Shown in pieces: positions 3,856-29,010 of a stretch of DNA of 29,284 nucleotides (within the stretch, counting starts at the first letter, position 1; each line of letters opens with the position of its first letter). The notes beneath the pieces were generated by a model that saw only the letters and a list, made by a program, of their open reading frames with translations, was not told the origin of the DNA and ran no database searches. A program made the translations under genes and the position numbers. Source of the DNA: Hysterium pulicare CBS 123377 (Eukaryota > Ascomycota > Dothideomycetes > Hysteriales > Hysteriaceae); assembly GCA_000467715.1 (NCBI GenBank), contig AJFK01000275.1, forward strand, positions 1-29,284, written 5' to 3'.

Positions 3856-3859
3856 CTAG

Positions 3860-4702
3860 CGTTTTCTCGCGGCACTTTAAACTCACCTCCCGCCTCTCTC
3901 TTCTATTTCAACCTCCAACTCACACTTTCCGTCTGATATTGCTTTTATCGCTGCTCTCTTCATTATGGCCCCCCTCTCTTCTTTTAGCTCCCCTCCCTTC
4001 TTTTAGCCTTCCTCCATTCCTTTCTGCCGTCTTTACTCCTCTCACTCTTGCTATCTTCCTTCCCCACGTTGATACCGCGCGCCCAATGCCTTTTCCGGCA
4101 GCCGGTACAGCCCTACTGATACTTGGAGAGCTCTTTCCCAAGTACAACCTCAAATCTATGGTTCAAAAACTCAACGTATGCTGTCTTCTGCACCCGCTTG
4201 GGATGCGACACAACGTATGTTTGGAAAAGACTCTGACCCATAACTTGGCCTTGTCTCCCAACCTTCGCGGGTTGTGGCGAAAATTGCAATTGAGGGCTCC
4301 CGGCTCTGTCATATGGTTGGTCTTGGAGGCTAAGAGTCTGAGTACTTTCACGACTTGATCCGAGACAACACTGCCTGCGGGAGGCAGCTCGGGCTTCGTG
4401 GATCCAAGGTCCTTCTTGTGTGTGCCGCTACCGGTAGGTTTCTGGCCCCGTTTGACTTTGGTTGAATCGGAATGCGCCATCTCACAACGGTCTTGTGTAC
4501 TTCCTTGAAAGCGACTTGATCTGCGTGGTTTGGTCGTGTTCAAATGCTAGGGTGTGTGTGCCCGCTATCTCATGCACTGCCTTTGGAAATCTTGGAGGTT
4601 GAGGGCTCCCCTCCTTCCTTGATGTAGTTGATCTGATCCTGCACTTCATTGGCCTTTTTTTCGTTGACCTTTCGCCTTCATGGTGGATGTTGAGGAAGAA
4701 AC
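3860..4702 (+). repeat. Structured dispersed element, copy 1
   Basis: After a TTTAAA motif and a CT-rich leader (3870-4060) come, in order: ATACCGCG; hairpin H0 CCGG-CAG-CCGG (4095-4105); hairpin H1 CTGCCT/AGGCAG around loop GCGGG (4371-4387); GGTTGAATCGG; a CACAA/TTGTG stem; CTTGAAAGCGACTTGAT (ending 4520); GCTAGGG; hairpin H2 with arms GTGTGTG/CATGCAC around a loop starting CCCGCTATCT (4554-4577); a T7 run (4654-4660); and a TTCATGGTGGATGTTGAGG block ending at 4702. The H2 arms pair fully only if G-U pairs are allowed. It ends 428 bp from the stop codon of gene B, in convergent orientation. Confidence 0.75.
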
Positions 4703-5129
4703 TGGAACGAGATCGGTATCTCAAGGATCGTGTAGTCTTATTCCACCACGCAGATCTCGCCGAGCCACAACAAAATGGTCCTTGACATTCCCTTCCTCGA
4801 ACTATGCTTCCCCTCTAACTGCTCTTATCCGCGTATGGCTCACTAATGTATGCGATTTGACTAACTTATGAGGGGCTTATCGATAAAATCTCAAATACCC
4901 CGCGATGCAAGTTAGGGAAACAATGTTCTCCAGCCAAGGGATGGATTAATAATTGGAGGCATGTATTTTGCACAACGACACGCCGCTGTTCGAAAGAACT
5001 TAGAAGTATCTAACATACACCAAACTCTTCTTCCAGCTTGCAATCGTATCTCTTCAAGAACCCCAATCCGCCAAAACTAGTATTCTTCCTCATGACATGA
5101 TGAATTGAAGCAGCTGTAGGAAGCATGCT
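4703..5129. other. Intergenic, 3' of gene B and of element 1
   Basis: No gene, domain or shared repeat is visible. This is the tail-to-tail spacer between element 1 and gene B. Confidence 0.5.
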
Positions 5130-5873
5130 CTATCCTGAGCATCCCTGCCAAAACTCCTCTTCAATACCTGCGAATGCCTGACCTTTGTGCTGGCGTGGAG
5201 GATGGCTATTGACGCATTGTGGACAGACGCCAGCATGGTTGCAGTTGATGTTATGTGTGGGACAGATGGTGCCAGGCAGTTGGCGGGAAATTGGGTCCAG
5301 TTCGCCATCATCGGCGTTGTGGGCACTCCGAGGTGTTAGTTTATTCGACAATGGGCGTGGGAGTGATTAAGCTTACAGGTCGGCCATCTCCTTGCATATA
5401 GCGGGATCTTTCATCCGGACGGATATGTCGCTCGACATCTTCATCTCAGCGAATCCCCTGGACAGAAAATGGAGTTTGTGACTGGTTGGGGAAAGCTTCT
5501 CGAGCTGGTCGCGAAGAAGAGTAATTGTTGCTCGGTCGAACTAGGATGGATTATTCATGTTAGCGGTGTCTATTCCTCGTCTCCTAGACCTCAGGTCAAG
5601 AATGCTTACTTCGGTCCGCTTCTCCTTCAAGTCGTCCATGGTGATGAAGGTAGAGAGAATATCCCGGATCTCATCGACCTTCATCTGAAGTACCTCAATT
5701 GCATTGTCCCGAGTCTCAATCTCCACCTTGGCCTGACGCATGACCTTCGTATTCTCAAACATGCCGCCAACTAACTCATCGTGCGCAATCTTGTCGGGCT
5801 TTCGAAGAAGGAATTCGTTCCTATCGGCGAGGTCCTGGAGGGCGAATGTAATATGAGTAAACGGGATGGACAT
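5130..5873 (-). CDS. Gene B: coiled-coil protein with C-x2-H-x9-C-x2-C knuckle
   Basis: Exons 5873-5610, 5540-5377 and 5325-5130 join to 207 aa. Intron 1 (69 nt, GTAAGC...GCTAAC...TAG) is phase 0; intron 2 (51 nt, GTAAGC...ACTAAC...GAG) is phase 2. Residues 1-125 are a charged coiled coil rich in Glu, Lys and Met. The C-terminal exon holds C164, H167, C177 and C180, with exactly the spacing seen in genes D and E, plus an extra C171. The basic tail found in D and E is replaced by a short unrelated end, so the finger may be partly decayed. The promoter region faces element 2 head-to-head. Probable role: nucleic-acid- or protein-binding, by analogy with its paralogues. Confidence 0.75.
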
Positions 5874-6630
5874 GTTGGTGGGTCTTTCGTTTGGGAATGG
5901 AAAGATGAGCAGAATGAAGATTGGGTCTGAAGAATTGAAAGGATGGGTCGAAAGTGTGAGGATGGAATTTTGAAGAGGTGGAAAAGAGAAACACACATTG
6001 GTGGGGGCGAGCGGAGTTAGCCGAGTGATTTGGGTGCTCAGCATGTCCACTCCTTCTCAAAGATAGAAAGAACACCAAAGAAGTTCAGCGGGTCCTCGGA
6101 TCACTTCAGACGTATCCGCGTTTATCTGCTAGTAGTCGAGACATGAGCAATTGATGTATCTCGAATGGAACAAATAATGTCCTCAAGCAAAAGCTTCTGG
6201 CTTCAAAGCATATCTAGACCAATACGTACAAATGGTAATTTGGGGAGAAGGACACGATGTTTGGGAATGGGGATGAAGAATTCCAAGAACCCAAAAGCCA
6301 AACAGTATTTCCTTGGAGTAAAGAAGTTCACCACCATTGATTAAGAATGAAGAACTTGAGGGAAAACCAAGTGCAGTCCTCCGCCATTTGACCATCCACG
6401 TAAAACTACAATGTGCGAAAGAAGGCCGAAATCTTCAGAAAATCTTGACACATGTCTTTCCTTTTTCCACCAAAGCGTGCCCACTCTCAAGGCATTTTTC
6501 AATGCAATATACGCTGTACTTCTTGAAGACCTGACTCACGATGTCAAACTGGCAGCCTTCTCATTGGCGGGTTAGTGCTCGGACCAACAATTCACGTGCA
6601 ATATTCGGCAACTTCGCCAAGGCGCTAGTC
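5874..6630. promoter_or_regulatory. Head-to-head region between gene B and element 2
   Basis: On the minus strand a pyrimidine-rich leader precedes the gene B start (about 5874-5990). A bZIP-type TGACTCA lies at 6532-6538. No convincing coding sequence is present; the open frame 6337-6534 (+) has no supporting features. Confidence 0.4.
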
Positions 6631-6639
6631 GCTCGGGCA

Positions 6640-7550
6640 CACTTAATTCGCACCTCCATTTATCTGCAACCTTCATCACTTACACTCACCTTCCACCATC
6701 ATTTTCCTTCTTACTTAGACCCACTACCTCCTCACACCAGCCTTCGAATGTTTCAAGTAACTGATAAATCACTTTCACATCTGCTGCCTTGCTCCCATCT
6801 TCTTCAATTTCTTTACTCCTTCTCTTCTCCTGTCATTTGTATTCCCTAATACCGCGGAGTTCGGCCTTACATTGGCAACCAGTACAGTAAATCCAGAGGT
6901 TTTGTTCGTCTCCTTGTATGATCAGTAATGGTCAACTCTCTCTTAGATTCAAAAATCCACGACAGCATCGGACCTAGACCTTTCCAATCGGATTGGGGCT
7001 ATAGGTACTGCGCGGATTTAAAGTAACTTCGTGGCAAGTCCAGGCCTCACGCCTTTAACCAAGGTTGCCCCTTGCCTTGTGGAGAGCTCCCGGCTCGAGA
7101 CTCGGTGGTGCACTGGTCCCCCACCGAGTTACTGTCTTCACGCATGACCTGAGGAGTTTGCCTGCGGGAGGCATCTTAGGCTTTGTGAATCCAGACTCCT
7201 ACCTACGCATATTTCAGATATGGTGATGAAGAGGGCCCTCATGCATCTACATATGTCATGCCCCTCCAGCCGCTATGAAGATCGGTGCTGGTAGTAGTCT
7301 GGTTGAATCGGATGCCGCTACCACAACGATCTTGTGTACTCCCTTGAGAGCGACTTGATCTGAGTGTAGTAGTTACAAAGCATTCACAAGCTAGGGTGTA
7401 CCTGCCCGCTATTTCATGTACGCGCTCTGGAAATCTTGGTACTTCGGACTTGTCTTCTTTACCGCACTGGGAGTCTATGCCTGGTGTTTCCACGACCCTT
7501 TTTCGTTGACATCTCTGCATCTTTACGATGGGTGTTGAGGAAGAAGAATT
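6640..7550 (+). repeat. Structured dispersed element, copy 2
   Basis: A CT-rich leader (6640-6850) is followed by ATACCGCG, an H0 equivalent (TTGG-CAA-CCAG, near 6877), H1 with stem TGCCT/AGGCA and loop GCGGG (7159-7173), GGTTGAATCGG, a CACAA/TTGTG stem, CTTGAGAGCGACTTGATC (about 7343-7360), GCTAGGG and H2 with arms GTGTACCTG/CATGTACGC around loop CCCGCTATTT (7396-7423). A T6 run and TTGAGGAAGAAG close it at about 7550. The H2 arms differ from other copies at several positions but still pair (one mismatch, one G-U). Convergent with gene C, ending 389 bp from its stop. Confidence 0.75.
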
Positions 7551-7938
7551 AGTATCTACGTTACCGGTCTCGGCCTTCATTTTCATCCAACGCACGGGAT
7601 CCTCTGCCTGGTCAAGGAAACGCAACTTGGGAATATCAATGGTCACCCTCATTGAGATTTCTTTAGAGATCGCCAGATTCTCCATTGTGAACTCGTTTAC
7701 GATTTTTTGGGTTAAAAGATTATACTATTTAGCATTTGCAGTGATTTTCGCTTGTGCACCATCTTCCGAATTCTGCATTTCTGACACAACGTGCGATAAA
7801 GCCGGACACAACGGCATTATACGCATGGAGATATATCCTAAAGCCAACAATGTGAGCTCCTTACCTCGTTTCTCCCTATTGATCGAACGCATCATCTAAA
7901 CGCATCCCATCGCCCATACCCACAACCAGCGGAACATC
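7551..7938. other. Intergenic, 3' of gene C and of element 2
   Basis: Open frames exist on both strands but none has a start, intron or domain that I can support. Confidence 0.45.
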
Positions 7939-8780
7939 TTAGCGCTTTTTGTAATTCGTAGATCTGTAGAAGCACTTCAGCTCATGCTCAATGCAATGAG
8001 AACAAGGGCTTCGGAAGTCGCATTTGATATTCGATCGGAAGCAGTTGGTACATGCCGCCTCTTTGGCCGACTTGAGAGAGTCGATAGTCATAGGAACGAT
8101 TGCTCTGTAGAGAGGTCAGTTTAAGAGACAGTGAGGGGTTTTCGAGGTGTGCTTCGATCATAATTAACGACTTTGCGCCTTTTGTTGGCCGAAGAAAGAG
8201 ATGAATCAGCTCCGAGTGGGTTGGGTCTGAACGGCAAGCCAGCAAACTGCTCCTTGAGCTGCTTATAATCTTCTTGCAACTTAGTATGGCTAGCTTGCAA
8301 GTAATCCCTCTCATTTTCAGCTGCGAAGCAACGCTGACGTTCCACGTCAATAGCATCCTAATTTGATCAGCTAGGAAGTTGGGTATAGGATATGGAGTCT
8401 GAACGAGTACCTGGTGTGCCATTCGCATCCGATCCATGCTTTTGTTGATTGCAACCATTGCTGCATGATGTGCAACCAAAGCTGTATGCATCTCCGCGGA
8501 GGTTATTACTTTACGGTCTGACATTGACTCAAGCATTTTGGTGTACCAGTCTCGAGTAACGAGTGCATCCTCTTGCTGGGAACCCCTGAATTCTGCTTGT
8601 TGGACGTCGGACGCCGCCTTTCCCAATGCCTCGATGGCCCTTCCAATCCTGTACTTGGAAGCCATGAGGGTCATGACGACATTGCCAGAATGGCGTATTG
8701 TCGAAGTTCTCGAGCGTAATGTCAAGGCCTTCGACATGCAGATATAGTTCTGGAATGAGATGCTTGGGGTCGGTAGACAT
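7939..8780 (-). CDS. Gene C: coiled-coil protein with C-terminal Zn2Cys6 cluster, frame-disrupted
   Basis: From ATG 8780 a plausible N-terminus is read for about 32 residues, but coding potential then continues one base out of frame (from about 8680) as a helical region down to 8411. A 53-nt intron (8410-8358, GTACTC...TTAG, phase 0) leads to a coiled-coil exon ending in NKRRK. The last exon (8104-7939, acceptor CTACAG) is phase 2 and encodes a textbook binuclear spacing, C-x2-C-x6-C-x5-C-x2-C-x6-C, with KCD and SPC as in Gal4-type domains, then a short basic end without the CCCH extension. No phase-2 donor is visible upstream; the available GT donors (GTCGTT) are phase 0, so the cluster is out of frame. 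An alternative start is ATG 8674. Two frame problems suggest a young pseudogene, unannotated splice forms or assembly errors. Confidence 0.65.
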
Positions 8781-9040
8781 CGTGTGGTGATGAGTGTGTA
8801 GACGGGTAGTGGAAGTGTGTAATGATGACTCCGGGATGGGAAGAGAGAGAGGGATATGGTCGGCAGAAGGTAAATTCGGGCGAGAGTTCAGGGAAGCCGG
8901 CCTGACGTTGTTCCGAAGTGGTTAATACGCTCGCCGAAGTTGAGGAAACTCGGCGAACTCCGGCGTTGCTAATATCTGACTCATCAACCGCGCACAAAAA
9001 CCCCTTCTTCCAAGTTGTCCGCAAATTTTCAACCTCAACC
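8781..9040. promoter_or_regulatory. Compact head-to-head promoter of gene C and element 3
   Basis: Only about 260 bp separate the gene C start from the leader of element 3. It contains TGACTCA at 8977-8983, the same bZIP-type site found upstream of gene E and element 6, and a 6-bp inverted repeat CGCCGA/TCGGCG near 8932-8955. A shared bidirectional promoter is inferred. Confidence 0.4.
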
Positions 9041-9895
9041 TCCACACTCAACTTCCTTTCTCTCTTTTTTTTCCCAACCACAGTTCCACTTTTTTGTGGA
9101 TTCAACACAACATTTTATCCATTGATCCCCTTTATATCATCCATGTTTATCCCACCCGCTCCGTCATTCATCTTTGCTCCCTTCACATATGCACTACCCT
9201 TCCCTCTGATACCGTGTTTCTTTGCCGTCGCATTGGCAGCCGGTGCTCTCAGTACTTTCAGTACGACCTCAACTTCCTCCGATTCAGAACTTCACAACAG
9301 AATGCTACCTGGACCACTCCACTGTTTCTCATTGGAATGGGGCATTGGTACTGTGTGAGTTTGGAAGAGTCTCTCGCCGCACACTTGGCCCTGGGTCCCT
9401 CCCGAAAGGGTACGGACTACGCTGCAATTGAGACCTCCCGGGTCAATCATATGGCCGGCCTTGGAGCCCCTTGAGACTCTTCCTTCACGTTTGACCTGAT
9501 ACAGCCTGCATGCGGGATGCAGTTCGGGCTGCGTGAATCCGGTTTCCTTGATCGTGCGCCCTTCATCGATTATGACGGCAAAGGTTCATGCATCTAGGTG
9601 CCATGTTCTCAGCCTGCAGAAGTCGGTGATTGTGACTGCTTGGATTCTTGGTTGAATCATATGCTTTCTGATAAGCAACGGTCCTGTGTACTCCCTTGAG
9701 AGCGACTTGACTCGCGTTTGCCAGAATGGCATATACATGCTAGGGTGTGTATGCCCGCTATCTCATACACTTGCTGCTTCAAACTTGCGGGTTTCATTCC
9801 CGCATGCAGAAATTGATGTCTGCATTTCCGTCGCCTTTTTTCGTTGACAATTCAACCTTCATGGTGGATGTTGAGGAAGAAATTTGTCGGCATGG
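9040..9895 (+). repeat. Structured dispersed element, copy 3 (best preserved)
   Basis: A T/C-rich leader with TATAT near 9132 is followed by ATACCGTG, H0 (TTGG-CAG-CCGG, 9234-9244), H1 CTGCAT/ATGCAG with loop GCGGG (9506-9522), GGTTGAATC, CTTGAGAGCGACTTGA (ending 9710), GCTAGGG, and H2 arms GTGTATG/CATACAC with loop CCCGCTATCT (9747-9770). Then come H3 TGCGGG/CCCGCA with a 7-nt loop (9786-9804), H4 ATGCAGA/TCTGCAT with an 8-nt loop (9804-9825), a T6 run and TTCATGGTGGATGTTGAGG. Compared with copy 1, the H1 stem has a C-G to A-T exchange on both sides. Convergent with gene D, ending 373 bp from its stop. Confidence 0.8.
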
Positions 9896-10267
9896 CCGGA
9901 CAAATCGGTCATGGTATTTGGATCTGCATCGTTTAGGCCAATTAGTCCTCCAACGACCTAATGCCATTCATTTTGAACAGTAACATATGATCGCCCCGTA
10001 CTGCCCCGTACTGCCCCGCACTACCATTTCATTTACTTCAATGAACGCAAATTGAGGAATCACGAAGCTCTTCCGTGTATCTGTTTGATTCATTTCATGG
10101 TATATGAGCCATGTCCGCCGAGAGATTGAAAACACTGGCATGACCCTGACTATACAGCCTACTCTAAAGAAGAAGTGATCACCCTACTCAATACCTATCC
10201 GTGACGTTCGATTCGCTGTATAGAAAGCAGCGCAATCCCATGCCCGGACTATTCTGAGCTAAGCTCC
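9896..10267. other. Intergenic, 3' of gene D and of element 3
   Basis: No gene is seen. A short run of CTGCCCCGTA repeats (about 9993-10020) is the only notable feature. Confidence 0.5.
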
Positions 10268-11223
10268 CTAGTCTAACTCGATGGCGGTACCCTTGGTCGT
10301 ACCGTTTTTACGACCACGACGATGATGACGCTTCTTTTCTCGCTGTCTCTCACACGAGAGACAATGACCCTCTGCAGTAAGTTGAATATTGTGCTCGCCG
10401 CAGACACCACCCGTGAGGTCTCGTGTGGTATGAGCCGACATACCGTCAGCCGTCGAGGTACTGTAAGCTGTTAGTGCCTACATCAAAGGAGGACCGGATG
10501 GGGGTGATCACTAACGTAGTTAGTTTGCGTTGTTTGTTCGAGTACTCCAGATCAACTTCATCGTCCACATCATCCCTTGCAGTTTGCTTGCTGCGGATAG
10601 CCATGTTGACATTACCAGCCGACGCAGTTTGCTTATCTTTTAGCTTTCGCTTCAGGATAGCTACCAACTCTTCCAGCGATACCACCATGGCATCGCTCTT
10701 GAGGCGGGAGCGACGTTCTTCCTCCAACTCGGCTTCCAAGGTCTAGACGATTATTAAGGTTAGCTTTGATAACTAACAATCGAGCGCGTTGGTTAGATCG
10801 AGAACAGTTACCTGGACCCGTTCATCTTGACGGTCTTCGAATGCATTAAGACGAGTATGGAGCTCATCTACCAATGCCCAGTCTCGTGTGATTGAGCCGA
10901 CGAGGTCTTCGTAAACAAGTTCCATTTTCTCAACGGTAGCGTCGTCCTTAAATTCGAAAGCCTAGCAAGTTCTTAAAGTTAGCCAAGCGTGCGCCACCGT
11001 AGCTCAGATTGAGAAAGCTTACCGCAATGCGAGCTTCATCAAGCTCATGTTGACGTAGCGACTCCTCCATTGCATCTGTGGCCGACATCAAGTGCTTCCA
11101 TACCTCAAGTGCCTCATCTGAAGTGGTGTTCGAACGAAGCTTTCTTAACATATCTCGATTTTTGGTGACGAGGCTGCGAAGGCTAGCGGTGATATGACCT
11201 TCGTGCTCTTTGATGAGTTCCAT
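10268..11223 (-). CDS. Gene D: coiled-coil protein with C-x2-H-x9-C-x2-C knuckle and basic tail
   Basis: Four exons, 11223-11023, 10961-10812, 10742-10516 and 10460-10268, give 256 aa. Introns of 61, 69 and 55 nt have donors GTAAGC, GTAACT, GTTAGT and CTAAC-type branch sites; the first two are phase 0, the last phase 2. The ATG at 11223 was chosen by alignment with gene E; the frame is open further upstream to an acceptor-like site near 11430. Residues 1-165 are helical and coiled-coil-like, with MEESLRQHELDEARI matching MEASMRKHQTDEARI in gene E. NKQRK ends the linker. The last exon has C213, H216, C226 and C229 followed by KKRHHRRGRK, a probable nuclear localisation or nucleic-acid-contact tail. 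Gene D is a tandem duplicate of E and convergent with element 3. Confidence 0.85.
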
Positions 11224-14849: not shown

Positions 14850-15135
14850 GGATCAAACCGGCAAAGACAGCGACCAAACATATCCGGTATATTTCACTTC
14901 AAACGATTGAGATTTAAAGCCGCAAATTGTTCCATTGAACTGCTGGTAACAGAGAAGGGCGCAAGATCTCATCAGCAAGCAGCTGCACAGACGCTTTGTC
15001 GTCCTCAACAACTCTCTGTTGAAGTGACAAGGGATATCAAAGAATAAAAGCTCGCAGCAAGCATCGCACATAGGTTCTCTTATGAAACCAAACGAAGGAG
15101 TCGTGCATAATACCAGTCGGCATTCAACCCCCACA
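14850..15135 (-). pseudogene. Possible decayed cysteine-rich family remnant
   Basis: One minus-strand frame contains a cluster of cysteines (CDACC, then CSC, C and C) loosely recalling the family domain, while an overlapping frame after a possible acceptor (near 15012) reads as a short helical segment. Neither preserves the spacing of intact members. A degenerate H2 hairpin lies immediately beside it. The identification is tentative. Confidence 0.2.
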
Positions 15136-15142
15136 GATCAGG

Positions 15143-15167
15143 GTATGAGCTAGCGGGCATACTCACT
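15143..15167 (-). repeat. Degenerate H2 hairpin core (minus strand)
   Basis: Arms GTATG/CATAC enclose a loop that reads CCCGCTAGCT on the minus strand, matching the conserved H2 loop of the structured element. The GCTAGGG block and the other hairpins are not recognisable, so this is probably a fragment. Confidence 0.4.
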
Positions 15168-15839
15168 CTATCATTCGTTTGCTTTGGTCTTTTCCGCTTC
15201 CATTAAGTCACCTCGAAGGATTAACACCGTGTATTTCAGGCCTATTGTCGCCCACCGAAACGAAGTGTTAAAGCCATAGGCTGGGTCCATGCAGATCAAA
15301 ATAGCTCCCGGTACTTGTCGAGACTCGAAACCCGGAGAGGAACATGTTCAAAGCCAACCCACATAATCCAGCCACTAATCATTCACCAAGTATACCGTCG
15401 GGAGCTCTCAAACAAGGCTCCAACTCTGCATACAAGAGTCGCGCGTCGTCGGTGTTGCTCTCATGCTCCCGCAGTATCGGTGGCACCCGAAACGCCGGGT
15501 TACTCGAAAGGTGAGCATGAATAGCCATTCGGTGTGTCTTCCGCAGTTTCTACGTTGGTGCGCTACTGTATGTCATATAGCAATTGCGGTGTGTTGAGAA
15601 GCGGAATATTCGTATGGAGTAGAAGATTAAAGCGGCGGCCGATGGAGGACATGATGCGGTAGCACTGAGATAGGTTAGGTCCTGATCATCATTAGACGTA
15701 GTATCAAAGGAAAGGGGCCAGGCTTGAGAGAATAGATGTGAGGTAAAAAATGGTAACTTGCAGAGATGGATGAGTAATATTCAGGGGCCGACTACGGCGG
15801 AACCTCGGTCGCTTAGAACTAGTAATCGCTAGCGCTTCC

Positions 15840-16375
15840 TGGTTGCACCCAAATTTCACCTCACTTTCTCGACTCCAGCCTTCGACTCCAACCTTCGGTA
15901 CTCACCTCTGCTCTCCCTCATATTCTCCCAAATTCATCCTTGCTTGTACACTTGTCGGCACAGCCTTCCATATTCTTCCCATCTCACCCCACCTCACTCC
16001 TCCCTTTCATCACGCTGATACCGCGCTTCTAAGCCCCGGCAGCCGGTACAAACTTCTTATGCTAGGGCGGTTGGTTGCTCAGTACAAACAGAATCTCATG
16101 GATATCCCGAATCAAAACCTGCTGAGATACAACGGCCCTGTGCACTCCCTTGAGAGCGACTGGGCTTGAGTCGATTGGCAACAACAAAAAGCTAGGGCGT
16201 GTATGCCCGCTGGTTCATACACATTCCATTGAGAAACCACGGAATCGATGGGTGGTTTGTATGGTGCACACCTCGTTTCGGCGGATTGGGAGTTCATGCC
16301 TGCTTGCATCTCGATGACCTTTTTTCATTGACCTTTCTCTGCCCTTACGGTGGGATTTGAGGAAGAAAACGAGTT
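15840..16375 (+). repeat. Structured dispersed element, copy 4 (internally deleted)
   Basis: CT-rich leader (15845-16010), ATACCGCG, H0 CCGG-CAG-CCGG (16036-16046), CTTGAGAGCGACT (to about 16162), AGCTAGGG and H2 arms GTGTATG/CATACAC with loop CCCGCTGGTT (16199-16222) are present, followed by a T6 run and a TGAGGAAGAA block ending about 16375. The H1 hairpin and about 300 bp around it are missing. A second partial copy follows directly. Confidence 0.7.
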
Positions 16376-16479: not shown

Positions 16480-16825
16480 TGAAAGGTTTCAGGCTCGACA
16501 CTCCGAGTTCCAAGCTCGACGTTCGGTAGCGCCCCTGTTTTCTCTTTAAGCTACTTTCCTCATTTCACAATCTGAAGGTTCCTGCGCGGGAGGTTCAACT
16601 GAAGCTTGCGTGATCCAAGCTCCTTCTCCACAACCCTCGAAAACATTGACTGAGAAATCTCATCCATCTAGATGTTACATCCTCTGGTTGGTGCGGGTGA
16701 TTGGTACTGGTTGAAAGGCTCGATTGAATCAGACAATGTCATTTCACAATGGTGCAGTGTATTTTCTTGAGAGCCACCTTGTGTGGATGGCTAGTGTGCG
16801 GAAGCTATTATAATCGCATGTGCTT
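16480..16825 (+). repeat. Structured dispersed element, copy 5 (partial)
   Basis: The segment holds a GGCTCGACACTCCG block like that of copy 2, a CCTGCGCGGGAGG equivalent of H1 (about 16581-16593, stem weakened), GATTGAATCAG, TTTTCTTGAGAGCCACCTT (about 16762-16780) and a degenerate GCTAG plus H2-like hairpin (16789-16822). It has no leader and no T-run block. Gene F ends 230 bp further on, in convergent orientation. Confidence 0.55.
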
Positions 16826-17874: not shown

Positions 17875-18231
17875 AGTGATGGAGTGGATGAGTGAGTTGT
17901 GTTCGACTTTTAAGTCGAGGAGAGAACACGGATGGAGGTATGTGTGTGGCGGAGACGAACACGAATTTTGGGATGTACAAGACTTGTTAAGGTTACGATT
18001 GGTTATTGTAGATTGGTTATTGTAATTCTAGAACGAATGAAGGACGCCCGTGTAGTGTCTCCCAAGTAGGTCACCAGGGGCGGATATTCACAGAGCGCGT
18101 GAAAAGGTTGTGCTTACACAAAGCGGTGATGTTCGAGTTGTTAAAGCGGAGTACGTCAGGTACCACACTTTCGCTGGTTGGGACCGTCACGCTGAAAGCA
18201 TTAGAACTGCCCAAAATACTTGTTCTCTTCC
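17875..18231. promoter_or_regulatory. Divergent promoter region of genes F and G
   Basis: About 360 bp between two ATGs pointing apart. The stretch near 17910-17925 contains a TTTTAAGTCG motif and a duplicated GATTGGTTATTGTA (about 17997-18024). No bZIP site is evident. Confidence 0.4.
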
Positions 18232-19263
18232 ATGGTCGGCCTTCCCAATTCCTCCACCATCAACCCTTCTTTGCTTCAACAACCACTGCCATCCAACGCA
18301 AAGATGGAGGGTTCTAACAAAGCATTCAACAACGTCTACAATATCAGTGCCTCCAACAATCTCTCCAACACTCAAACAGGTGGAATGTCGACAAAGCGTC
18401 CAGATAGAACCCCTTATGTATCTGCAGCTACGACTTCTGGAGATGGCCAGCATGCAGAGCTCCTGTCGAGCTCTGAGGATGAGGACGAAGTTTCCCGGAT
18501 ACTATACTCCGATAAAGCTAAATCACCCGTAGGAAACTGCCAGGGCTACTCTCCGAAGGCAAGTTCTAATGTATACCAGGGCCTTACCGAAGAAGTGCTG
18601 AAGCTCCGCGAGGAGGTCGCGACCTTGACCAAAGAAAAGTCCGAGTGTCAGCATGAAATCTCCACTCTACGGTCCGATAAAGCAGTGCTAGAGAGCTCGT
18701 TGGCAGAGTCTAAGCAAAAAGGTGAGGGTCACGCCCAAAATCTGCAGGTAAGAAACATTCAATGTTCCCCTTGTATAGGGACAATAGCTGACGCAGATCC
18801 GCTTTAGACAGTTATCGATGAACAACGCAACTTGATCCAGATACTCAAATCTAAAGTTGAAAACCTCGAGAAGGAGGTTCAGTCCCGGAACAAGCCCAAC
18901 TCCAATTCAAAGGCTGCTGTTGATATGAATCCACCAATGGTAATGATTCCAGCTCTAAATTCTACCAATGGGAAAATGTAAGTTTTTGAAATCCAAACAA
19001 TGTGTTCTTCAGTCAAAAGTTGCTAACACCTTCATAGTCCTGAAACTAAGATCCCTAAGCCGATCCCTCCTCATGATGTAAAATGCGTGAGCTGCTTTCG
19101 CCATGGGTTTGATTGTGATGGGAGGGAGCCATGTGTGTGCTGCGTTATACGACAAGTCGAAATTTGCGAGAGGGTTAAGTGTTTTAATTTTCAGAATTGT
19201 TTGAACCCTGAGTGCACATATGCTCATGAATGGAACCACTACACCAAGTTCAAGGAATGGTAG
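18232..19263 (+). CDS. Gene G: coiled-coil protein with C-terminal Zn2Cys6-like plus CCCH-like domain
   Basis: Exons 18232-18747, 18808-18977 and 19038-19263 give 303 aa. Both introns are 60 nt (GTAAGA...TTTAG, phase 0; GTAAGT...GCTAAC...CATAG, phase 2). The N-terminal 100 residues are Ser/Asn-rich with an acidic SSSEDEDE patch; residues about 115-215 form a coiled coil. The C-terminal domain has C245, C248, C255, C261, C264, C272, C277, C283, C288 and H292. The first six fit Gal4-type spacing (x2, x6, x5, x2, x7) with the CD and EPC landmarks; the remainder is C-x5-C-x4-C-x3-H. The protein ends 11 residues later. The start was taken as the first ATG; a TTG extends the frame 12 bp. Convergent with element 6. 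Confidence 0.87.
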
Positions 19264-19769: not shown

Positions 19770-20310
19770 CATATTATTATACTTCGCCCTCAAGTTCCGT
19801 TCATGACAGAAGCGTAACGGCAAAAGAAAAAGCCCTGTGGCATGCAAGTATTAATCCTTGCAAGCGGGTATAAAATCCCGTTCCCTGAGGCATGTGTATG
19901 AAATAGCGGGCATACAAACCCTAGCTTTCGAATGACAAACATTCTAATGGCTCCCAACAACACCCTCAAGGGGATATTTCTAGAGTGGGTAACCAACAGG
20001 TCCAATCGAGGTCTCCGCTAACTTTTCCTTACAAGAGCGTCCAGATTTGCGGATCTACAAGGCCAATGTAAGAGTCCAGTCAGAGCCCATCGAAGATCCT
20101 GTAGTTGAACAAAGTACAACCCAGAACATCGAAGCGCCACCACCCTTAGCCCTAAGCTGATCAATCACAAAGACGCTTTGCCTTGGCCATGACAAACCAA
20201 AAATGCATTTGATCAAGACCCGGGTTAACGATGGTTGCGCTTCGAAGTGGTGGTTTGTCCAGTGCTGAGGAGGGAAGAAGGAGCGTGGAGGAGGAGGTTT
20301 ATATGGGCTC
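19770..20310 (-). repeat. Structured dispersed element, copy 6 (minus strand)
   Basis: Minus-strand order: TATA (20298-20304), CT-rich leader, a divergent middle with a CCCCTTGAGGG block (about 19960-19972), AGCTAGGG, H2 (19894-19918; loop CCCGCTATTT), H3 CGGG/CCCG with an 8-nt loop (19865-19880), H4 TGCAAG/CTTGCA with an 8-nt loop (19843-19862), then CTTTTTCTTTT and TTGAGGGCGAAG. The H4 stem differs from copy 3 at several positions on both sides while remaining fully paired. H1 is not recognisable. It is convergent with gene G, about 500 bp away. Confidence 0.7.
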
Positions 20311-20341: not shown

Positions 20342-20344
20342 GCC

Positions 20345-21206
20345 CCCTAAAGCAGAGCCACATTCATTTACACGTGACCGGAACTCGGAATTGATGCGAG
20401 TCTCAAGCACAATGATTAGGCCTTTACACACGATTCATCAAGATATTCGTATCATAATCACTAGTAAGAAATGGTGATGCCCCTCCAAACTTGATGTTCA
20501 GGTCCTTATTTTTTTTTTAACCTATCGTCATCGTCGTTTTGTAGATCCAAACCTCGATAGATTGAGCTATGAGATTTTATTCTCGAGAACCAGCAACACG
20601 ATGGTATTTCTCTATTGGAGAATATTCTGGTCTTCGAGCAAACATCGGCAGCAAACGGTTATGATGGGCTGGCTATATGAGCCCAGCTAAAACCTCCATC
20701 AAGGAATCAGAGCTTTATGATTCAATACTCCTTGATAGCCTACAGAGTGTTTGCTATACTAAGTATTGAGATGTTGTTTATCACTAACCTCAAACGTCGG
20801 CGTACTTCACTATTCACTACCTCCTGAAGTGCTCCACCGTTGGCCCACTTCCAACTTATCATGTTCATTGTATTTCAGTGCTGTCGAGCTTTCTGCTCGT
20901 CTCCAAATTGTGGGATTGGTTTCATTTCACTATGACGGTCAGGTCATAACGGTTCAAATGCAAATGCAGACGAGCACGTTCCGCTCCAGCCTCCGTTCGT
21001 GGTGAATGAGTGGCGCAATGAATGCGCCAACGCTTGGGCGATGCCACCACTAGTGTACTGTCAGGCTTTCACGGTAATCTCGTCGCGGGAAAATAAATAG
21101 TTGCGCGAAGCCTTCAAGAATACCATCAACTTTGACTCAACTTTGGACTCGAATCGCCAACCCAACCACGCTCCTGGAATCCTCATTTTCAGCCCCCAGT
21201 GCTAGA
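20345..21206. promoter_or_regulatory. Upstream region of gene H
   Basis: No gene is supported. A T9 run lies near 20511-20518. AAATAAATAG (21091-21100) about 107 bp before the gene H ATG could serve as a TATA element, and TGACTCA occurs at 21133-21139, probably within the transcribed leader. Confidence 0.4.
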
Positions 21207-22636
21207 ATGTCTTTCATGGACAACTTCGATGACCATCCGAGATTGGATGAAGATTCTACATCTGTACCAGACACTGCTTCTTCTACGACAGTAATAGGGG
21301 AACCATTACTTCATCATTCTTTCGACTTTTCTGCCTCCGACAGGGCTATGACTACCAACAAACCCTCTCAACAGGACTCAGATACCAATGAGCTACGAAT
21401 CTCCGGTTTAAGTAGCCGAACCTCTTCGCTGGATATGGATGTGAGCTATGTTCCCCCATACCAGGTAGAGGATCTCGCAACATTCGACAATTTCAAATTC
21501 CCTCCGTTGCCTGATCTATCTTTTACATATCCAGATGGCTCGTATGCCTTCCCGACAGCCAATCTTCCCTCACCCCCGCCGGACATAACAGACACCCAAC
21601 TGATCGCACAACATGCAACCGTTGCTGCACCTGAGTCCGACCATACTGGATACAACTATGGCGCAGGGACTCTCGATGCAGGTCGCCTTTTGGAGAATTT
21701 TTCAGACCTTCAGAAGCATAACTCATTGTTGCTGAAAACTAATTCCGATCTTCTTGAAGAACATGCTCGCTTCCGTGCGCAGAACCAGCAATTTCGGGCA
21801 GAAAATTTGACGTTCCGCGGAGATAATGCATCTTTTCGGATCGAAAACGGCCATAATCGACTTGAGATCATGACTCTTCGGAGCCATCTAGGGGTGAAGT
21901 ACCTACAGGAGAGTACAGCAGTACAAATTGAAGAACAGTTCGCCAAGATGGAGAAAGAAAATGAGGCAAGTATCGCTGTGCCAATGACTTAATGCAATTG
22001 CCATTCGCTGACGTTATTCCGTCTCCAGGCGTTGAAGCTCCAAATCGATCAGAAGGATCAACTTCTTTCTAATAAAGACGAGTTAATCTCGGAGAAGGAC
22101 CATCTTCTCTCCGAGAAAGACCGTCTCATTGTTAGCAAGGACCAACTTCTTCTCGAGAAGGACCAACTTCTTCATTGCCACCGCGTCGAGATCACCCATC
22201 TCAGGAAGGGATTCCAAGACGCCCTTGAGAAGCAGCGCCAGAAGCACGGGGGTGAAATGAATGAAGTCATGAACGTTCGTGCAAAACGTCTGGGTGACGA
22301 TGTCTTGACTTCCCGAGCCAAGAAGCCTAAGTCAGAAACCCAAGCAACCTTGTAAGTACCATAACTGAGCTTCGAGGGATGTTCTAACAATGTCTTAGGA
22401 GTGAGACCTTACCCAATCCGGGAGTAGTCTGTGTTACATGCTTGTCCAGCAATCAGGCAGCATCCTGCGATAGTGGCCGGGTTTGTGCGAACTGCGAGAA
22501 GTCCAATAGCACATGCGTCCGAATGAAATGCAAAGATTACGCGGGGACTTGCCGAAATCCGCGCTGCCAATATTCTCACCTGGGAGATGGGCATTCCGAT
22601 CCTGTTCGATACCAAAAGCTTCACCGTAGTTCATGA
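21207..22636 (+). CDS. Gene H: long heptad-repeat coiled coil with C-terminal Zn2Cys6-like plus CCCH-like domain
   Basis: Exons 21207-21965, 22029-22351 and 22399-22636 give 439 aa, the longest member. Intron 1 (63 nt, phase 0) has a GC donor, GCAAGT; the nearby GT donor would break the frame. Intron 2 (47 nt, GTAAGT...TTAG) is phase 2. Residues 1-160 are acidic, Ser/Pro-rich and probably disordered. Residues 161-230 contain FRxxN heptads, and 258-302 are six near-perfect heptads of the form KDxLLSx, encoded by 21-bp DNA repeats. AKKPK marks the linker. Ligands are C372, C375, C384, C390, C393, C400, C405, C412, C417 and H421. The repeats imply a long parallel dimeric coil. Convergent with element 7; head-to-head with element 6. 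Confidence 0.88.
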
Positions 22637-23299: not shown

Positions 23300-24140
23300 A
23301 CTCTTCCTCGACTACAGCACATGGCCATAGATCAACGAAAAAAAGTGCCATCGACACGCGGGCATTATTCCCACAGAAAAACAATGAGTTCTAATCTGTC
23401 AAGGCTGGTGTATGATTTTAGCGGGCATACACACCCTAGCTTTCGAACAACGAGAGTATAAGCCGAAGCCCACACCCATCGTGATCTGACTGGACTTCTG
23501 CCTGAGCGCTCAGGGCGCCTAGCAGTAATGACCAACGCACAGAGGTCATGTCACTCCCCGAAGGATCTGACAGAACCAAAGTGGAAAGGGGCCTCACGCT
23601 ACCCTTCTACATGATTGTGAAAGCAAGCACATCGATATGAGTTCGCCGGAGTATTTGAAGACCAGGGCGGCCACAGATGTGGCATCTCTAGGAGACAAGG
23701 CCGGGGCATCCCAGGGACTCCGCTTGAACACCTACTCCAAGACCAGGGCGGCCACGGGTGTGGCATCTCTAGGAGACAATTCCCCTAGAGACAAGGCCGG
23801 GGCATAATCATTGCAGGGACAAGTGAAACCATAGCAGCTATGCTGCCTCCAAACCATGCAGTTGAGTTGCGACGAAGCGTAAGTGCTGTGAAGAAGGAGT
23901 GGAAGAGCGAAGGATTGGAGGTAGAACGAGGATGTAGAGAAATAGTGTATGGTAGGAATGCACAACGAGGATGTAGAAGGAAGGTGCAGAGGGAGGAAGG
24001 TGGCGATGTAAGCCAAAGAAACGAACGAGGATGTGGTGTAGAGGGAGGAAGGTGACGATGTGAGTTGAAGTGTTGAATGAGGATGCGGAGTGGTTGGGTT
24101 GAACGAGAGTAAGAAGCTTTCGGGGCGGGCTTAAATATAC
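23300..24140 (-). repeat. Structured dispersed element, copy 7 (minus strand)
   Basis: Minus-strand order: TATATTTAAG (24131-24140), a leader with internal ACATCCTCGTT repeats (24110-23920), an H0-like GCAGC-ATA-GCTGC hairpin (about 23837-23849), a tandem duplicated segment, a 14-bp palindrome CCTGAGC/GCTCAGG (about 23501-23514), AGCTAGGG, H2 arms GTGTATG/CATACAC (23408-23433) whose loop is one base longer but keeps CCCGCT, a GTGGG/CCCGC hairpin (23358-23374) and a T7 run with CGTTGA. The extra loop base would shift any reading frame, yet the stem is intact. Convergent with gene H. Confidence 0.7.
23658..23816. repeat. Two-copy direct repeat within element 7
   Basis: About 45 bp starting AAGACCAGGGCGGCCAC recur at 23658 and 23739 (81-bp offset), and AGACAAGGCCGGGGCAT recurs at 23694 and 23789. 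An 8-bp inverted repeat TCTCTAGG/CCTAGAGA surrounds about 23766-23791. Confidence 0.75.
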
Positions 24141-25770: not shown

Positions 25771-25787
25771 CCGCCGCCGCCGCCGCC
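25771..25787. repeat. Short CCG microsatellite
   Basis: About five and a half CCG units lie in the divergent region between gene I and element 8. Confidence 0.8.
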
Positions 25788-25832
25788 TCAAACTCATTTC
25801 GTTTTCCTGTCACCCCGTCAGTTCATTGCCTT

Positions 25833-26290
25833 TATAAAACCCTTCGCTCCTCCACTTCCTCGGATTTTCTCTCCATGAACTCATGCTACGTTTCGCCTTG
25901 GGGCAACCTACTGACTTAGGTTGCCTGACCCCTCGCTCGTCCATCGGGTCCGAATGTAGAAATGGGTTCCAATTCCTCTCAGAGGCTCCTGCATTGAATC
26001 TGTGTTCTCAGTCCCACCGATCAAGGAAAAGGACCTCACGGACAATGCAGCATTCTTCGTGAACCCTCAGCAAAACAGCAACCAGGCTGCGGGAGTCTAT
26101 GCCCCCAGATGATGCTCGCGGAGTCGGTTTACAAAAGCTAGGGTGTGTATGCCCGCTATTTCATACACCAGTCTTCAACTCTTTGGGAAGTGGTACCCAC
26201 AAATGGTATTTCGTACCAGCAAACGTTTTGATGACCTTTCTTTTCGTCGCGATGTTCACCTTCATGGTGCGTCGGGAGGAAGAAGCGCTG
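25833..26290 (+). repeat. Structured dispersed element, copy 8
   Basis: TATAAAA (25833-25839) and a CT-rich leader are followed by an H0-equivalent hairpin GGCAACC/GGTTGCC (near 25902-25925), H1 GGCT/AGTC with loop GCGGG (26085-26097, one G-U), AGCTAGGG, H2 arms GTGTATG/CATACAC with loop CCCGCTATTT (26145-26168), H3 GTGG/CCAC (26190-26200), H4 TGGTA/TACCA with loop TTTCG (26204-26218), TTTCTTTTCG and TTCATGGTGCGTCGGGAGGAAGAA. It is shorter between H1 and H2 than copies 1-3. Gene J lies downstream in convergent orientation, 615 bp away. Confidence 0.75.
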
Positions 26291-26904
26291 GCTGTCTCGC
26301 ATATTTGGCGCAACATTCCTTTCCATATAATTGTAATAGGAAGCGTGTTTAGAATTCAACGAGATACTGTACATGGTATGGTGGTTTCAGTAGAGAATAG
26401 ACGAAGCAGAGTTCTATCTTGACATCACTTTGTCTTGGTAAATGTGAAATATTGAGGGCAGTACAGTATCGACATGTTCGTTTCAGGCTTTTCCCAAAGG
26501 TCAAACGTTCTGTGCGAAATGGACCATATCAAGTTAGGCCTCCAATCCAGTAGTCACTATCCCTCCGATCTCACTGCCTGGAATGGAAGAGATCAAAATA
26601 TCTGCCTTTACGACTCAGCTTCGCCGGCGCTGTCGAGAAGAGCACGGTATTTCTATGTCCGTTTGAGGCTTTCTTCAAACGTTAAACATTTTGTGCACAA
26701 CGGGATGTATTGAGGTAAGCCATCAAACCAGTAGTCATCATTCCTCAGATTGTAATGCCTAATTTAGAGGAGATCTATCTTTACTTTTGTCGCCATTTGA
26801 TTTCGTCATCTATGGCTTAGCTTCTCAGCCACAACTGTACAACTGTACATGTGTATTACCCAAAAGCCTTGCACGGCTATAACACCACATGTCTCCACCT
26901 GCTA
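26291..26904. repeat. Intergenic with an approximately 150-bp tandem duplication
   Basis: The stretch from about 26466 to 26620 is repeated, diverged, from about 26647 to 26795 (offset 181). Shared blocks include TATGTCCGTTTGAGGCTTT-like and CCAGTAGTCA(C/T)-like sequences. No coding sequence is supported. It lies between element 8 and the 3' end of gene J. Confidence 0.6.
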
Positions 26905-27735
26905 TCACACACCCTCTTTGCGCGATTTCTCCTTCTTCGACACCTTAGCGTACTCCACGAGCTCTGCGTAGGTGTCACCTGGATGGACATAGATGCATTT
27001 TGAATTCAGACAGGTCCACTTTCCGTAAGACCGGCACTTCATTCTCTTGCATGCCGCCCCGTTGGCTTGACATTCTGCGCACGGAGTGCCATTATCGCAG
27101 GAAGCTTCGTTGTGATTGATCAGGCAGTGAACACAGGGGACGACTTTCCTGGAACGAGGGTCAGTAGATTGAAAGAGTAATGAGGTTGAAAGAGGTCGTA
27201 CTCGGCGATTTGATTTCCCAGTTTTGCTTTCTTAATTGATGACTCGTCATTGAGCTCCCTGGGGCGCTTGTTGTTTAAAGGGCTGCTTTGGACTGTTAGA
27301 CCACCCATCTTTCGGCTCAACGCGCTCATCTCCGCTTCGTATTGTAACTTGATGGTTTGCATAGCATCTTGAAAGGCTTTCTTTTTCTCAGAAAGCTGAT
27401 GTTCCAGTGTCTAGACGAGGTTGTCCGTGTCAGTGGCGAAAGGATATATTCAAACGAGGTTCACGTACCACCACTTTTGCTTCTGATCTGATAGCTCGTT
27501 CTTCCGCTTTGGTGGCGCGTGCATTTGCCTCATTTGCGCGACGACTCACGGTGTCGATTGTGTCAGCGGCCTCGAGAATAGTATCGCCTTGCCACTCAAT
27601 CGTCCATTGCAAGTTATCAATCTGCTTTTGTTTATCGTCAAGTTTTCTGCCATACTTCTGGATTGTATGCCGAAACGTAGTTTTCAGAGACTTATACTTT
27701 GCGCGATCTTGCGCAGATCCGGGATTAAGGTCCAT
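26905..27735 (-). CDS. Gene J: coiled-coil protein with C-terminal Zn2Cys6-like plus CCCH-like domain
   Basis: Exons 27735-27469, 27410-27202 and 27148-26905 give 239 aa. Introns are 58 nt (GTACGT...CTAG, phase 0) and 53 nt (GTACGA...CTGAC...CCAG, phase 2). Residues 8-120 form a coiled coil rich in Ala, Arg, Glu and Lys. The linker contains NKRPREL and IKKAK. Ligands are C164, C167, C176, C182, C185, C192, C197, C205, C210 and H214, the same spacing as gene A. A Lys/Glu-rich tail follows. The ATG at 27735 is the first after which the coil begins; the frame is open upstream to 27897, so an extra N-terminal exon is possible. Convergent with element 8, head-to-head with element 9. Confidence 0.87.
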
Positions 27736-28229
27736 CTGTGGTTCTACACAACGGGTGGCAGATGGCGGTGTGTTGATAGTTTGGAGATGTTGAAAGAGTA
27801 GGTTGGGTACTTTACCTACGTAAATACATACGTGCTCTACTTGCAACCCACGAAAGTGGCTAGTGTAAATGAGCTCTTTTAGCGTAGGAAGCCGCAAGAT
27901 TGAAGATATTCGCCCAGGTCAGCTGCGCCTCTCTGAGTTACATCCGTGGGTATCCTACCTGACCTACTTGAGGCCTTGTCTAGTATTTCAATCGGTTGCT
28001 GCCGCTGTTTGGCTTCGGGTCCTAATGAACGTGTACTCCACGCGCCGGTAAGATTCGGCTGGGTCCAAACATGCGGCGCTAGTAGTGAATCACTGTCATT
28101 TGGGTTGAGATTGCGGGCAGCGGGTCACAAGGTGCGGGAATTAACTAGGTAAAAAGATCATCTGGAGAATACACAACTGCCCGTTCGCCGAAGACCTCTA
28201 GGATTTAGCGCTTTGGCACAAGTATTTGA
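27736..28229. promoter_or_regulatory. Divergent region between gene J and element 9
   Basis: No gene is supported and no TATA box or TGACTCA site is evident. Confidence 0.35.
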
Positions 28230-29010
28230 TATCCATGGCCCCGCTCTACTTCAACCTCATTCCTTCTCCGCCACAACCTCTACTCCACCTCAACCTCTAC
28301 TCCACCTCAACATCCACTCCACCTCAACCTCCACTCTACCTCAACTTCAACCTCAACTTTGTCTACCTCTGCCTGCCCTCCCTCGATTCTTTTAAAGCTA
28401 TCGTGGCTCTTTGCCCTCTCTCTCTTCAACCCACCCCCACAAGACACCACCCCATTCCAACTTCATGCACCTCGACTCCAATGGTAGTCGTTCACTGTTC
28501 ACCGGATCTTACGAGGAGTCGTGGCCTTGCCAAGGTCCCTGCGGGGGTCGCCCTTCATTCACCGTAGATTCAAGCTCGGACAAAGCGCCATGAGGAGGCC
28601 TGACTTTAGCCCTCTCGGGGGTGGTTCCTTCGGGGGTCGTACTCGTTTCACCATGCGTGGCTCTCCGAGTTCTTCGAACTTTGACACAACTACTTAGGAG
28701 CCTTGAGTGAGTCTCATGAGGAAGGATGGGTAGCTTGGTGTCTTCTGTTCTGTGCGGCCGTTTCGCGGCAAATTTCCTGCTATTCCCTTACCCGGCGTTG
28801 GAATCTTTGGTCACCCTCGTGCACCTTGATGCCGACGACAGCATGCCCTAGTAGGAGTATATGCCTGCTTTCCTGAATGCTGTCCTTTCTTTCGCGTTGA
28901 AACTTTGCGGGTGTTTGTGCCCGGAGTAGGAGTATATGCCTATTCTTTCAACGCACTCTTTTTTTGCCCTTGTGCTGTTGCCTTGATGGTGGCACTTGAG
29001 GGCGAGAGAT
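28230..29010 (+). repeat. Structured dispersed element, copy 9 (diverged)
   Basis: A CT-rich leader containing a minisatellite (28266-28360) is followed by triplicated CGGGGGTCG blocks (28545-28645), a CTAGTAGGAGTATATGCCTGC stretch in place of GCTAGGG-H2 (28848-28870), H3 CGGG/CCCG with an 8-nt loop (28908-28923), H4 TAGG/CCTA with an 8-nt loop (28927-28942), a T7 run (28960s) and TTGATGGTGGCACTTGAGG. H1 and H2 are poorly preserved. By the pattern of the other copies, a family gene on the minus strand is expected just right of the window. Confidence 0.5.
28266..28360. repeat. 17-bp CT-rich minisatellite
   Basis: About five imperfect copies of CCACCTCAACCTCTACT lie in the leader of element 9. 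Confidence 0.8.

Follow-up and report, generated by a model that had tools for sequence, protein, structure and literature searches.

A probable family of clustered small nuclear RNA-type genes in Hysterium pulicare, with a terminal hairpin also found beside U1, U2 and U4 genes

Contig C214 of the ascomycete Hysterium pulicare, analysed over its entire length of 29,284 bp and referred to below as the window, carries a series of repeated elements with ordered hairpins that are interleaved with genes for zinc-motif proteins, several of them placed as divergent neighbours (table 1). Both the RNA and the protein families are also present on contig C213 (87,102 bp), which bears the preceding number and putatively joins C214. 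Intron signals, pyrimidine-rich promoters and spliceosomal RNAs agree with a eukaryotic origin of the genome. By comparing the copies with each other and with the rest of the genome (37.2 Mb, 596 contigs), the elements are read as genes for structured non-coding RNAs, probably of the small nuclear RNA (snRNA) type, transcribed by RNA polymerase II (Pol II) and ending in a hairpin, H5, so as to form a new family of approximately 16 copies among the zinc-motif proteins.

Copies were identified with a hidden Markov model (HMM) built from three long copies, copy 1 included, and with two covariance models, R1 for the H4 and H5 hairpins and R2 for H5. In the window, nhmmer yielded 10 matches above its inclusion threshold and a weak one (28854-29007, E 0.043) that was confirmed by covariance model. 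On C213 the HMM gave five matches at E <= 1 and a further one at E 1.4 (at 83.5 kb), the latter confirmed by R1, which also added copies at C213:52112 and C213:61345. The copies provided with H5 are 16, eight in C214 and eight in the final 37 kb of C213. When R1 was run over 116,386 bases, 17 matches with E <= 10 were obtained, each on C214 or on C213 beyond 50 kb, and none in C213:1-50,000; the weakest, at window 28847-28904 (E 0.00096), corresponds to an additional octaloop hairpin in the last copy. When the long element was sought across the genome, by DNA and by pattern, only C213 and C214 gave matches, with counts that are lower bounds.

Table 1. Elements, associated signals and interleaved protein genes in the window. 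Evidence lists the searches that gave a match.
Feature	Position	Strand	Details	Evidence
Copy 1	3863..4744	+	H4 ~4620-4645, H5 4656-4701	nhmmer E 2.1e-204, R1 68.4 bits, R2 62.5 bits
Copy 1, upstream signal	~3876	+	TTTAAA, then pyrimidine tract	promoter-like scan
Copy 2	6640..7580	+	H4 7464-7487 (loop AGTCTATG), H5 7498-7546	nhmmer, R1, R2
Copy 3	9003..9918	+	H3 9739-9770, H4 9804-9825 (loop AATTGATG), H5 9836-9882	nhmmer, R1, R2
Copy 4	15970..16370	+	H3 16191-16222, H5 16320-16368	nhmmer (15970-16094 and 16109-16370, counted as a single element), R1, R2
Partial element, middle part only	16504..16805	+	no H5 found	nhmmer E 1.1e-22; no R1 or R2 match
Degenerate copy	14996..15222	-	H3 block recognisable	nhmmer E 5.8e-8 (15222-14996); no R1 or R2 match
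Copy, 3' module	19780..19934	-	H4 TGCAAG/CTTGCA (loop GATTAATA), H5 19782-19825, base GCC/GGC	nhmmer (19934-19780), R1, R2
Same copy, upstream signals	~20303, ~20318	-	TATAAA (~20303), CGCTTAG (~20318)	promoter-like scan
Copy, 3' module	23300..23448	-	H5 23300-23343	nhmmer (23448-23302), R1, R2
Copy, 3' module	26125..26291	+	H5 26239-26285; TATAAAA ~25833 upstream	nhmmer, R1, R2, promoter-like scan
Copy, 3' module	28847..29009	+	H5 28962-29007	R1, R2
Same copy, two octaloop hairpins		+	AGTAGG-AGTATATG-CCTGCT and AGTAGG-AGTATATG-CCTATT	
Protein gene	1258..2202	+	Zn2Cys6-like and C-x7-C-x4-C-x3-H region 1801-1953	
Open reading frame, divergent to copy 2	5541..6050	-	assigned to the family by position and composition	by eye
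Protein gene, divergent to copy 3	7972..8780	-	open reading frames with Zn2Cys6-like segment 7972-8052	
Protein gene	18220..19263	+	terminal Zn2Cys6-like/CCCH-like region 19084-19227	weak coiled-coil-type Pfam hits
Protein gene	21132..22636	+	terminal Zn2Cys6-like/CCCH-like region 22430-22579	zf-CCCH_2 E 4.6e-4, below curated cut-off
Further family member, segment	24882..24968	-	Zn2Cys6-like segment	
Protein gene	26938..27897	-	Zn2Cys6-like/CCCH-like region 26983-27135	

The terminal hairpin H5 is 46 nucleotides (nt) long and reads, in order, TTTTTTC, G, TTGAN, a loop of mostly 5 nt, NTTGA, G and GAAGAAA. A 7-bp UUUUUUC/GAAGAAA base (GCC/GGC in three copies) is followed by a G-G mismatch, a UUGA/UUGA step with tandem wobble pairs and an upper stem that varies in sequence while its pairing is kept, for a total of 18 modelled pairs and arms of approximately 20 nt. 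In an alignment of 20 copies made with MAFFT, 95.8% of 354 cells pair, as opposed to 54-62% with slid partners, and double changes are found in 13 of the 18 pairs. This alignment (A6) was made without the copies at 7498, 16320 and C213:73321, with their longer or different upper arms, and without those at C213:52157 and C213:61390, which were outside that set. With 29 matches of R2 (16 from the cluster and 13 from elsewhere, down to E 0.11), in an alignment fitted to that model, the corresponding values are 95.7% of 507 cells (slid, 53-67%) and 14 of 18 pairs. Covariation was also ranked with a G-test corrected for the average product (APC), each pair being set against all other column pairs. 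In the 29-copy alignment ranks 1-8 of 820 column pairs are all occupied by structure pairs, and the structure pairs among the top n of n testable were 8/14 in alignment A6, 10/14 in A7, 5/21 in A3, 6/21 in A4 and 4/7 in A5; certain structure pairs rank low (one at 443/820 in A6 and 476/820 in A7). Slide and shuffle controls remove the relatedness of the copies only incompletely.

Folding of each copy revealed an ordered series of hairpins ahead of H5. H4 consists of a stem of varying sequence around a conserved 8-nt loop (AATTGATG, GATTAATA, AGTATATG and AGTTTATG among others), and a loose scan of C213 and C214 for such octaloop hairpins returned 16, 11 of them within element copies, versus a mean of 5.1 in 20 shuffles. 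For H4 and H5 together, in 13 cluster copies (alignment A3, from which the degenerate copy at 14996 and that at C213:73259 were left out), 91.1% of 314 cells pair versus 51-58% with slid partners, double changes are found in 17 of 25 pairs, and none of 500 shuffles reached any of the five measures. Realignment of 17 matches to the model gave 92.0% of 401 cells and 18 of 25 pairs; for H4 alone, in this model-fitted alignment, six of seven pairs show double changes. The signal of H3 is weaker (94.6% of 56 cells, a value reached by 2/500 shuffles), this hairpin being mostly invariant with two pairs that show double changes (16/500 shuffles reach this number), and the apparent covariation of H1 rests on three to four copies. 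An earlier note on this DNA had described about nine copies between 3860 and 29010 with stems changing on both sides, an observation that is confirmed here and a span that agrees with the copy coordinates. Its shared blocks (GCTAGGG, CTTGAGAGCGACTTGA and a T-run with CGTTGA, the last corresponding to H5) are all present, as are the stems quoted for H1 (CTGCCT/AGGCAG from ~4371, CTGCAT/ATGCAG from ~9506) and H4 (ATGCAGA/TCTGCAT, TGCAAG/CTTGCA, TGGTA/TACCA and TAGG/CCTA, three of the four with 8-nt loops); the gain of one base in a loop of the copy at 23408-23440(-) is also real.

H5 occurs outside the cluster as well. A strict pattern gave nine matches in the genome (on C15, C16, C56, C159, C249 and C300, plus three window copies) and none in the reversed control, and a second pattern, with nine matches and one in the reversed control, added C240, C327 and C596; its match on C350 looks coding and was set aside as likely due to chance. 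A third pattern, TTCGTTGN{12,32}TGAGGAAGA, had 21 matches and again none in the reversed control. By eye, 18 of them are H5, four in the cluster and 14 on other contigs, while those on C23, C356 and C369 are not. A further pattern, TTGAN{9,22}CTTGNN{9,22}TTGAGGAAGAA, in which the second gap was set over-long, had no match genome-wide, and all the pattern-based counts of H5 are lower bounds. Model R2, run later on six more pattern loci, matched all six, with seven hairpins in total; at E <= 1 both C213:1-50,000 and the initial 10 kb of C212 and of C215 were free of matches. The dispersed copies provided a test in which the structure had been fixed beforehand from the cluster. In alignment A5, which holds 11 of the 14 dispersed pattern hits (C16 and C289, of other length, were excluded and the identical C243 and C300 merged), all 154 cells pair, versus 46-56% in slid controls. 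The search pattern itself fixes 66 of these cells (six of the 14 pairs), but the 88 free cells also all pair, with double changes in each of the seven variable pairs.

By comparison with Rfam (RF00003, RF00004 and RF00015) several dispersed H5 loci proved to be spliceosomal RNA genes. U4 was recognized at locus L065 (89.1 bits, cut-off 46) and U2 at L045 (80.5 bits, cut-off 46), with a second, sub-threshold U2 at L042 (34.3 bits), whereas U1-like sequences were found at six loci (L061, L050, L060, L064, L042 and L062). Support for the U1 assignment comes from hallmarks of this RNA seen in the alignments, namely AUACUUACC at the 5' end, AUUGCAC as a loop and AAUUUUUG as the Sm site. At L045 the full-length U2 match, last stem-loop included, ends at 1499 and H5 spans 1500-1545, with no gap; at L065 U4 (310-175, minus strand) is followed after 1 nt by H5 (173-128, minus strand), and at L061 a full-length U1 match (341-195, minus strand) is followed after 10 nt by H5 (184-139, minus strand). 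The sub-threshold U2 of L042 (609-484, minus strand) is likewise followed by H5 (484-440, minus strand; E 0.0022). Upstream of most of the dispersed H5 loci that were read, a TATA-like box and a pyrimidine tract can be seen by eye. U5 (C329, 69.4 bits) and U3 (C244, 48.4 bits) gave one match each.

Some H5 units are grouped locally. After the one U1-like gene of L064 (C289) a tandem H5 pair is found at 133-177(-) and 58-103(-), 29 nt apart, and further groups are those of L057 (C327; 648-693 and 1480-1525) and L042 (C15; 440-484(-), 1092-1137(+) and 1500-1545(-)); some of these units belong to RNAs that Rfam does not recognize. Five of the six U1-like copies also contain, by eye, intron-like insertions, namely those on C242 (L062), C243 (L060), C289 (L064), C300 (L050) and C15 (L042). 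The first apparent intron lies within the end that recognizes the 5' splice site, between AUACUU and ACC in C242, C243 and C289, after the variant AUACUC in C300 and similarly in C15, and is absent in C315, while the second precedes GCAAUUUUUG in C242, C243 and C289 and is absent in C300, C15 and C315, so that the U1 paralogues vary in the presence or absence of each intron at the same site. An mRNA-type intron was reportedly described by Takahashi in 1993 in the U2 gene of Rhodotorula hasegawae. The likeness consists in intron-like insertions in snRNA genes; here, however, they are in U1, one of them between AUACUU and ACC, and they vary among paralogues.

Stable hairpins have been predicted in S. 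pombe for every Pol II snRNA gene, immediately following the mature RNA (stems 23-32 nt, loops 3-5 nt); there Pac1, an RNase III, promotes termination, and the criteria for a Pac1 hairpin are a stem of at least approximately 20 nt, with bulges tolerated, and a loop of 3-5 nt (PMC8421224). H5 agrees with such criteria, with arms of approximately 20 nt at the lower bound and loops mostly of 5 nt, and its placement 0-10 nt downstream of U2, U4 and U1 at L045, L065 and L061 is that of Pac1-type hairpins. H5 and the yeast Pac1/Rnt1 hairpins are alike in lying directly downstream of Pol II snRNAs and in having a small loop and an imperfect stem, but the sequence of the H5 base (UUUUUUC-G-UUGA / UUGA-G-GAAGAA) is conserved across U1, U2, U4 and the cluster, unlike that of the yeast hairpins. 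The H5 loops (CUUGU and UUCAU among others) also differ from the AGNN tetraloop of S. cerevisiae Rnt1. Six RNase III domain matches were found on four contigs. C107 and C94, with two matches each, may encode Dicers, whereas C401 (486-amino acid frame, 64.4 bits) and C71 (433-amino acid frame, 29.5 bits) are single-domain candidates and, from the single domain, presumably non-Dicer RNase III enzymes. Because of the match in position and loop with S. pombe and of the single-domain RNase III genes, H5 is read as an RNase III 3'-end hairpin. From the sequence, we infer transcription, RNase III cleavage and a protein partner. Pol II would transcribe the cluster elements, and H5 would most likely be a cleavage hairpin for an RNase III of the Pac1/Rnt1 type, freeing the 3' end of the RNA and stopping transcription. 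The mature part, with H3 and the 8-nt-loop H4, would be a new RNA family amplified at one locus, and the zinc-binding-motif proteins encoded by the interleaved genes may bind the cluster RNAs.

Whole-window Rfam scans at gathering scores gave no match for the cluster copies, and with relaxed E-values (window 3800-10000 and 25800-26320; C213:50-60 kb and 80-87 kb) all hits had E >= 0.5; these relaxed scans covered part of the cluster, C213:60-80 kb lying outside the Rfam scans. Compared with spliceosomal U1, U2 and U4, the cluster RNAs share H5 and, in six of 16 copies, a TATA-like box with a pyrimidine tract (simple scan, no shuffled control), but differ in having no Rfam match in the scans made and, in 15 of 16 copies, no strong Sm-like site. 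By this reading they would be snRNA-type transcripts, the distance between presumed promoter and H5 being approximately 400 to 900 nt. At C213 ~50,004-50,187 (L025) a strong Sm-like site, AATTTTTTTTTTGG, is followed by two octaloop hairpins and then by H5, and this copy at 50.1 kb is the most snRNA-like of the cluster. Overall, the interpretation offered by the earlier note holds in part. Its preference for a structured transcript over a protein is supported by the strong covariation, found also in the larger alignment and in the dispersed H5 copies, and by the frame counts given below, and in the Rfam scans made, of a kind that the note had proposed, no family was matched by the cluster copies. 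The term 'dispersed' holds for the terminal hairpin only, the whole element having been found at one locus. The pairing with a gene family stands as interleaving at the locus; a functional pairing would be hypothetical, with H5 on 14 outside contigs and the proteins limited to one weak match there.

Several observations weigh against the proposed scheme or restrict it. All six U1 matches are sub-threshold (53.4 to 22.2 bits, E 8e-11 to 0.08, versus 69.5), partly because of the apparent introns; at L060, L062 and L064 the match stops ahead of the apparent second intron, which places H5 further off in the DNA, and at L050 and L042 it overlaps the start of H5, so that there H5 could belong to the mature RNA. 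Seven other H5-bearing loci, scanned separately, gave no RNA identity with Rfam (best E 0.33). H5 was predicted at U5 and U3 and was found by R2 at neither locus (701-bp pieces, 237-261 bp downstream searched), in contrast with the hairpins predicted at all Pol II snRNAs of S. pombe (PMC8421224); H5 thus marks a subset, made of U1, U2, U4, the cluster and several RNAs without identity. The H5 arms, at the lower bound for Pac1, are shorter than the 23-32 nt given there for S. pombe. In the cluster, 10 of 16 copies gave no TATA-plus-pyrimidine site in the scan, and a single copy of the 16 has a strong Sm-like site close to its 3' end, so that the cluster RNAs are not ordinary Sm-class snRNAs, an identity that was rejected.

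If H5 were not cleaved, it would be a mature 3'-terminal stem-loop acting as a stability or protein-binding element. This is unlikely but has some appeal, since the U1 model match runs into H5, the interval from the Sm site to H5 is short in the U1 copies on C15 and C300 and holds no clear stem-loop IV, and conservation of the lower stem and of the G-G mismatch exceeds what should be required of a generic RNase III substrate. However, H5 of L045 starts past a U2 complete with its last stem-loop, that of L061 is 10 nt beyond the end of a full-length U1 match, and the published Pac1 hairpins agree with H5 in placement and in the size of the loop (PMC8421224). The partial and degenerate copies (16504-16805 and 14996-15222) and the 10 of 16 copies in which no promoter-like site was found might instead suggest a graveyard of functionless snRNA-derived pseudogenes, but H4 and H5 keep their pairing through double changes across the cluster copies, when neutral decay would break the stems, and in the sequence outside H5 the Rfam scans made detected nothing that resembles U1, U2 or U4, which renders this explanation improbable.

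Many copies with a conserved 3' end and variable bodies are also what would be expected of mobile elements similar to short interspersed nuclear elements (SINEs) or miniature inverted-repeat transposable elements (MITEs), with H5 as a recognition hairpin for transposition. The long copies are on C213 and C214 only (as lower bounds), and a transposon is disfavoured by their presence at one locus; among the dispersed H5 units, several belong to U1, U2 and U4 genes that have TATA-like boxes of their own, so that we consider mobility very improbable. Hardly more credit can be given to precursors of small RNAs, either microRNA-like (milRNA) or small interfering (siRNA), or to another hairpin-processing role: hairpins of approximately 46 nt and two possible Dicer loci (C107 and C94) would suit it, but the upper stem changes freely in sequence with pairing kept, and U2 and U4 are followed by this very hairpin. 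It is extremely improbable that the conserved blocks derive from an exon or from protein-coding sequence, as a relic. Minus-strand open frames do run over copies 1 and 2, and over the last 160 nt at least one of the six frames is open in 10 of 16 copies; yet each frame taken singly is open in at most four of the 16 and base changes track pairing, so that frame counts and covariation together disfavour a coding relic.

The interleaved proteins look coiled-coil by eye and from weak Pfam hits. On C213 beyond 48 kb and on C214, 11 segments contain both a C-x2-C-x6..8-C-x4..5-C-x2-C-x6..7-C and a C-x5..7-C-x4-C-x3-H motif, three further segments have the first only and one the second only (counted with no random control). 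The Cys spacing of the first motif resembles that of the fungal Zn2Cys6 cluster; when four segments were compared with Pfam at E <= 10, no Zn2Cys6 match was reported. The second motif resembles the Nab2-type CCCH finger, with sub-threshold zf-CCCH_2 matches in three of the four segments (best 21.0 versus 25.8 bits) and none in the fourth. Among nine aligned members 12 columns are invariant, and the three Cys and the His of the CCCH-like motif are conserved in 9/9. Outside the cluster the protein family gave one weak match (C552). The neighbouring genes at ~10260-11391(-) and ~11660-12560(-) have, by eye, similar basic, Cys-containing ends (~HN ... C-x2-C ... KKRHH) of a different subtype. Direct repeats were also noted: a 52-nt unit is repeated five times at window 181-533, near the contig start, with a spacing of 61-83 bp, and shorter repeats lie upstream of the minus-strand element at 23.3 kb (23658-23779 and 23983-24086; 95%/41 nt and 77%/52 nt). 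The whole locus could be a co-amplified ribonucleoprotein (RNP) system, in which approximately 16 diverging RNAs with AGUNUAUG-like octaloops would be bound by, and co-diversify with, at least 11 motif proteins, although at present we regard such a system as quite unlikely.

Structured RNA motif candidates have been found in fungi by comparison (PMC5640933, PMC8216456), including an 'AU-rich hairpin' motif with eight of 12 examples in Rhizoctonia solani (PMC5640933). Compared by description, and in the parts of these sources drawn on here, none of them is presented as an snRNA 3' hairpin or as a clustered family. Searches of the open-access literature found no description of a hairpin, recognizable by its sequence, that lies at the 3' ends of U1, U2 and U4 genes. 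The cluster is best filed as a new clustered snRNA-type RNA gene family with a sequence-conserved 3' hairpin common to U1, U2 and U4. H5 can serve as bait, in that a short pattern with no reversed-control match picks snRNA-type genes genome-wide, including ones that Rfam misses. Furthermore, a clustered RNA family is exposed beside putative RNA-binding proteins, so that the existence of a dedicated RNP locus becomes testable; if it were true, this might be, for example, a self/non-self, selfish or regulatory locus with a borrowed snRNA promoter and 3'-end signal.

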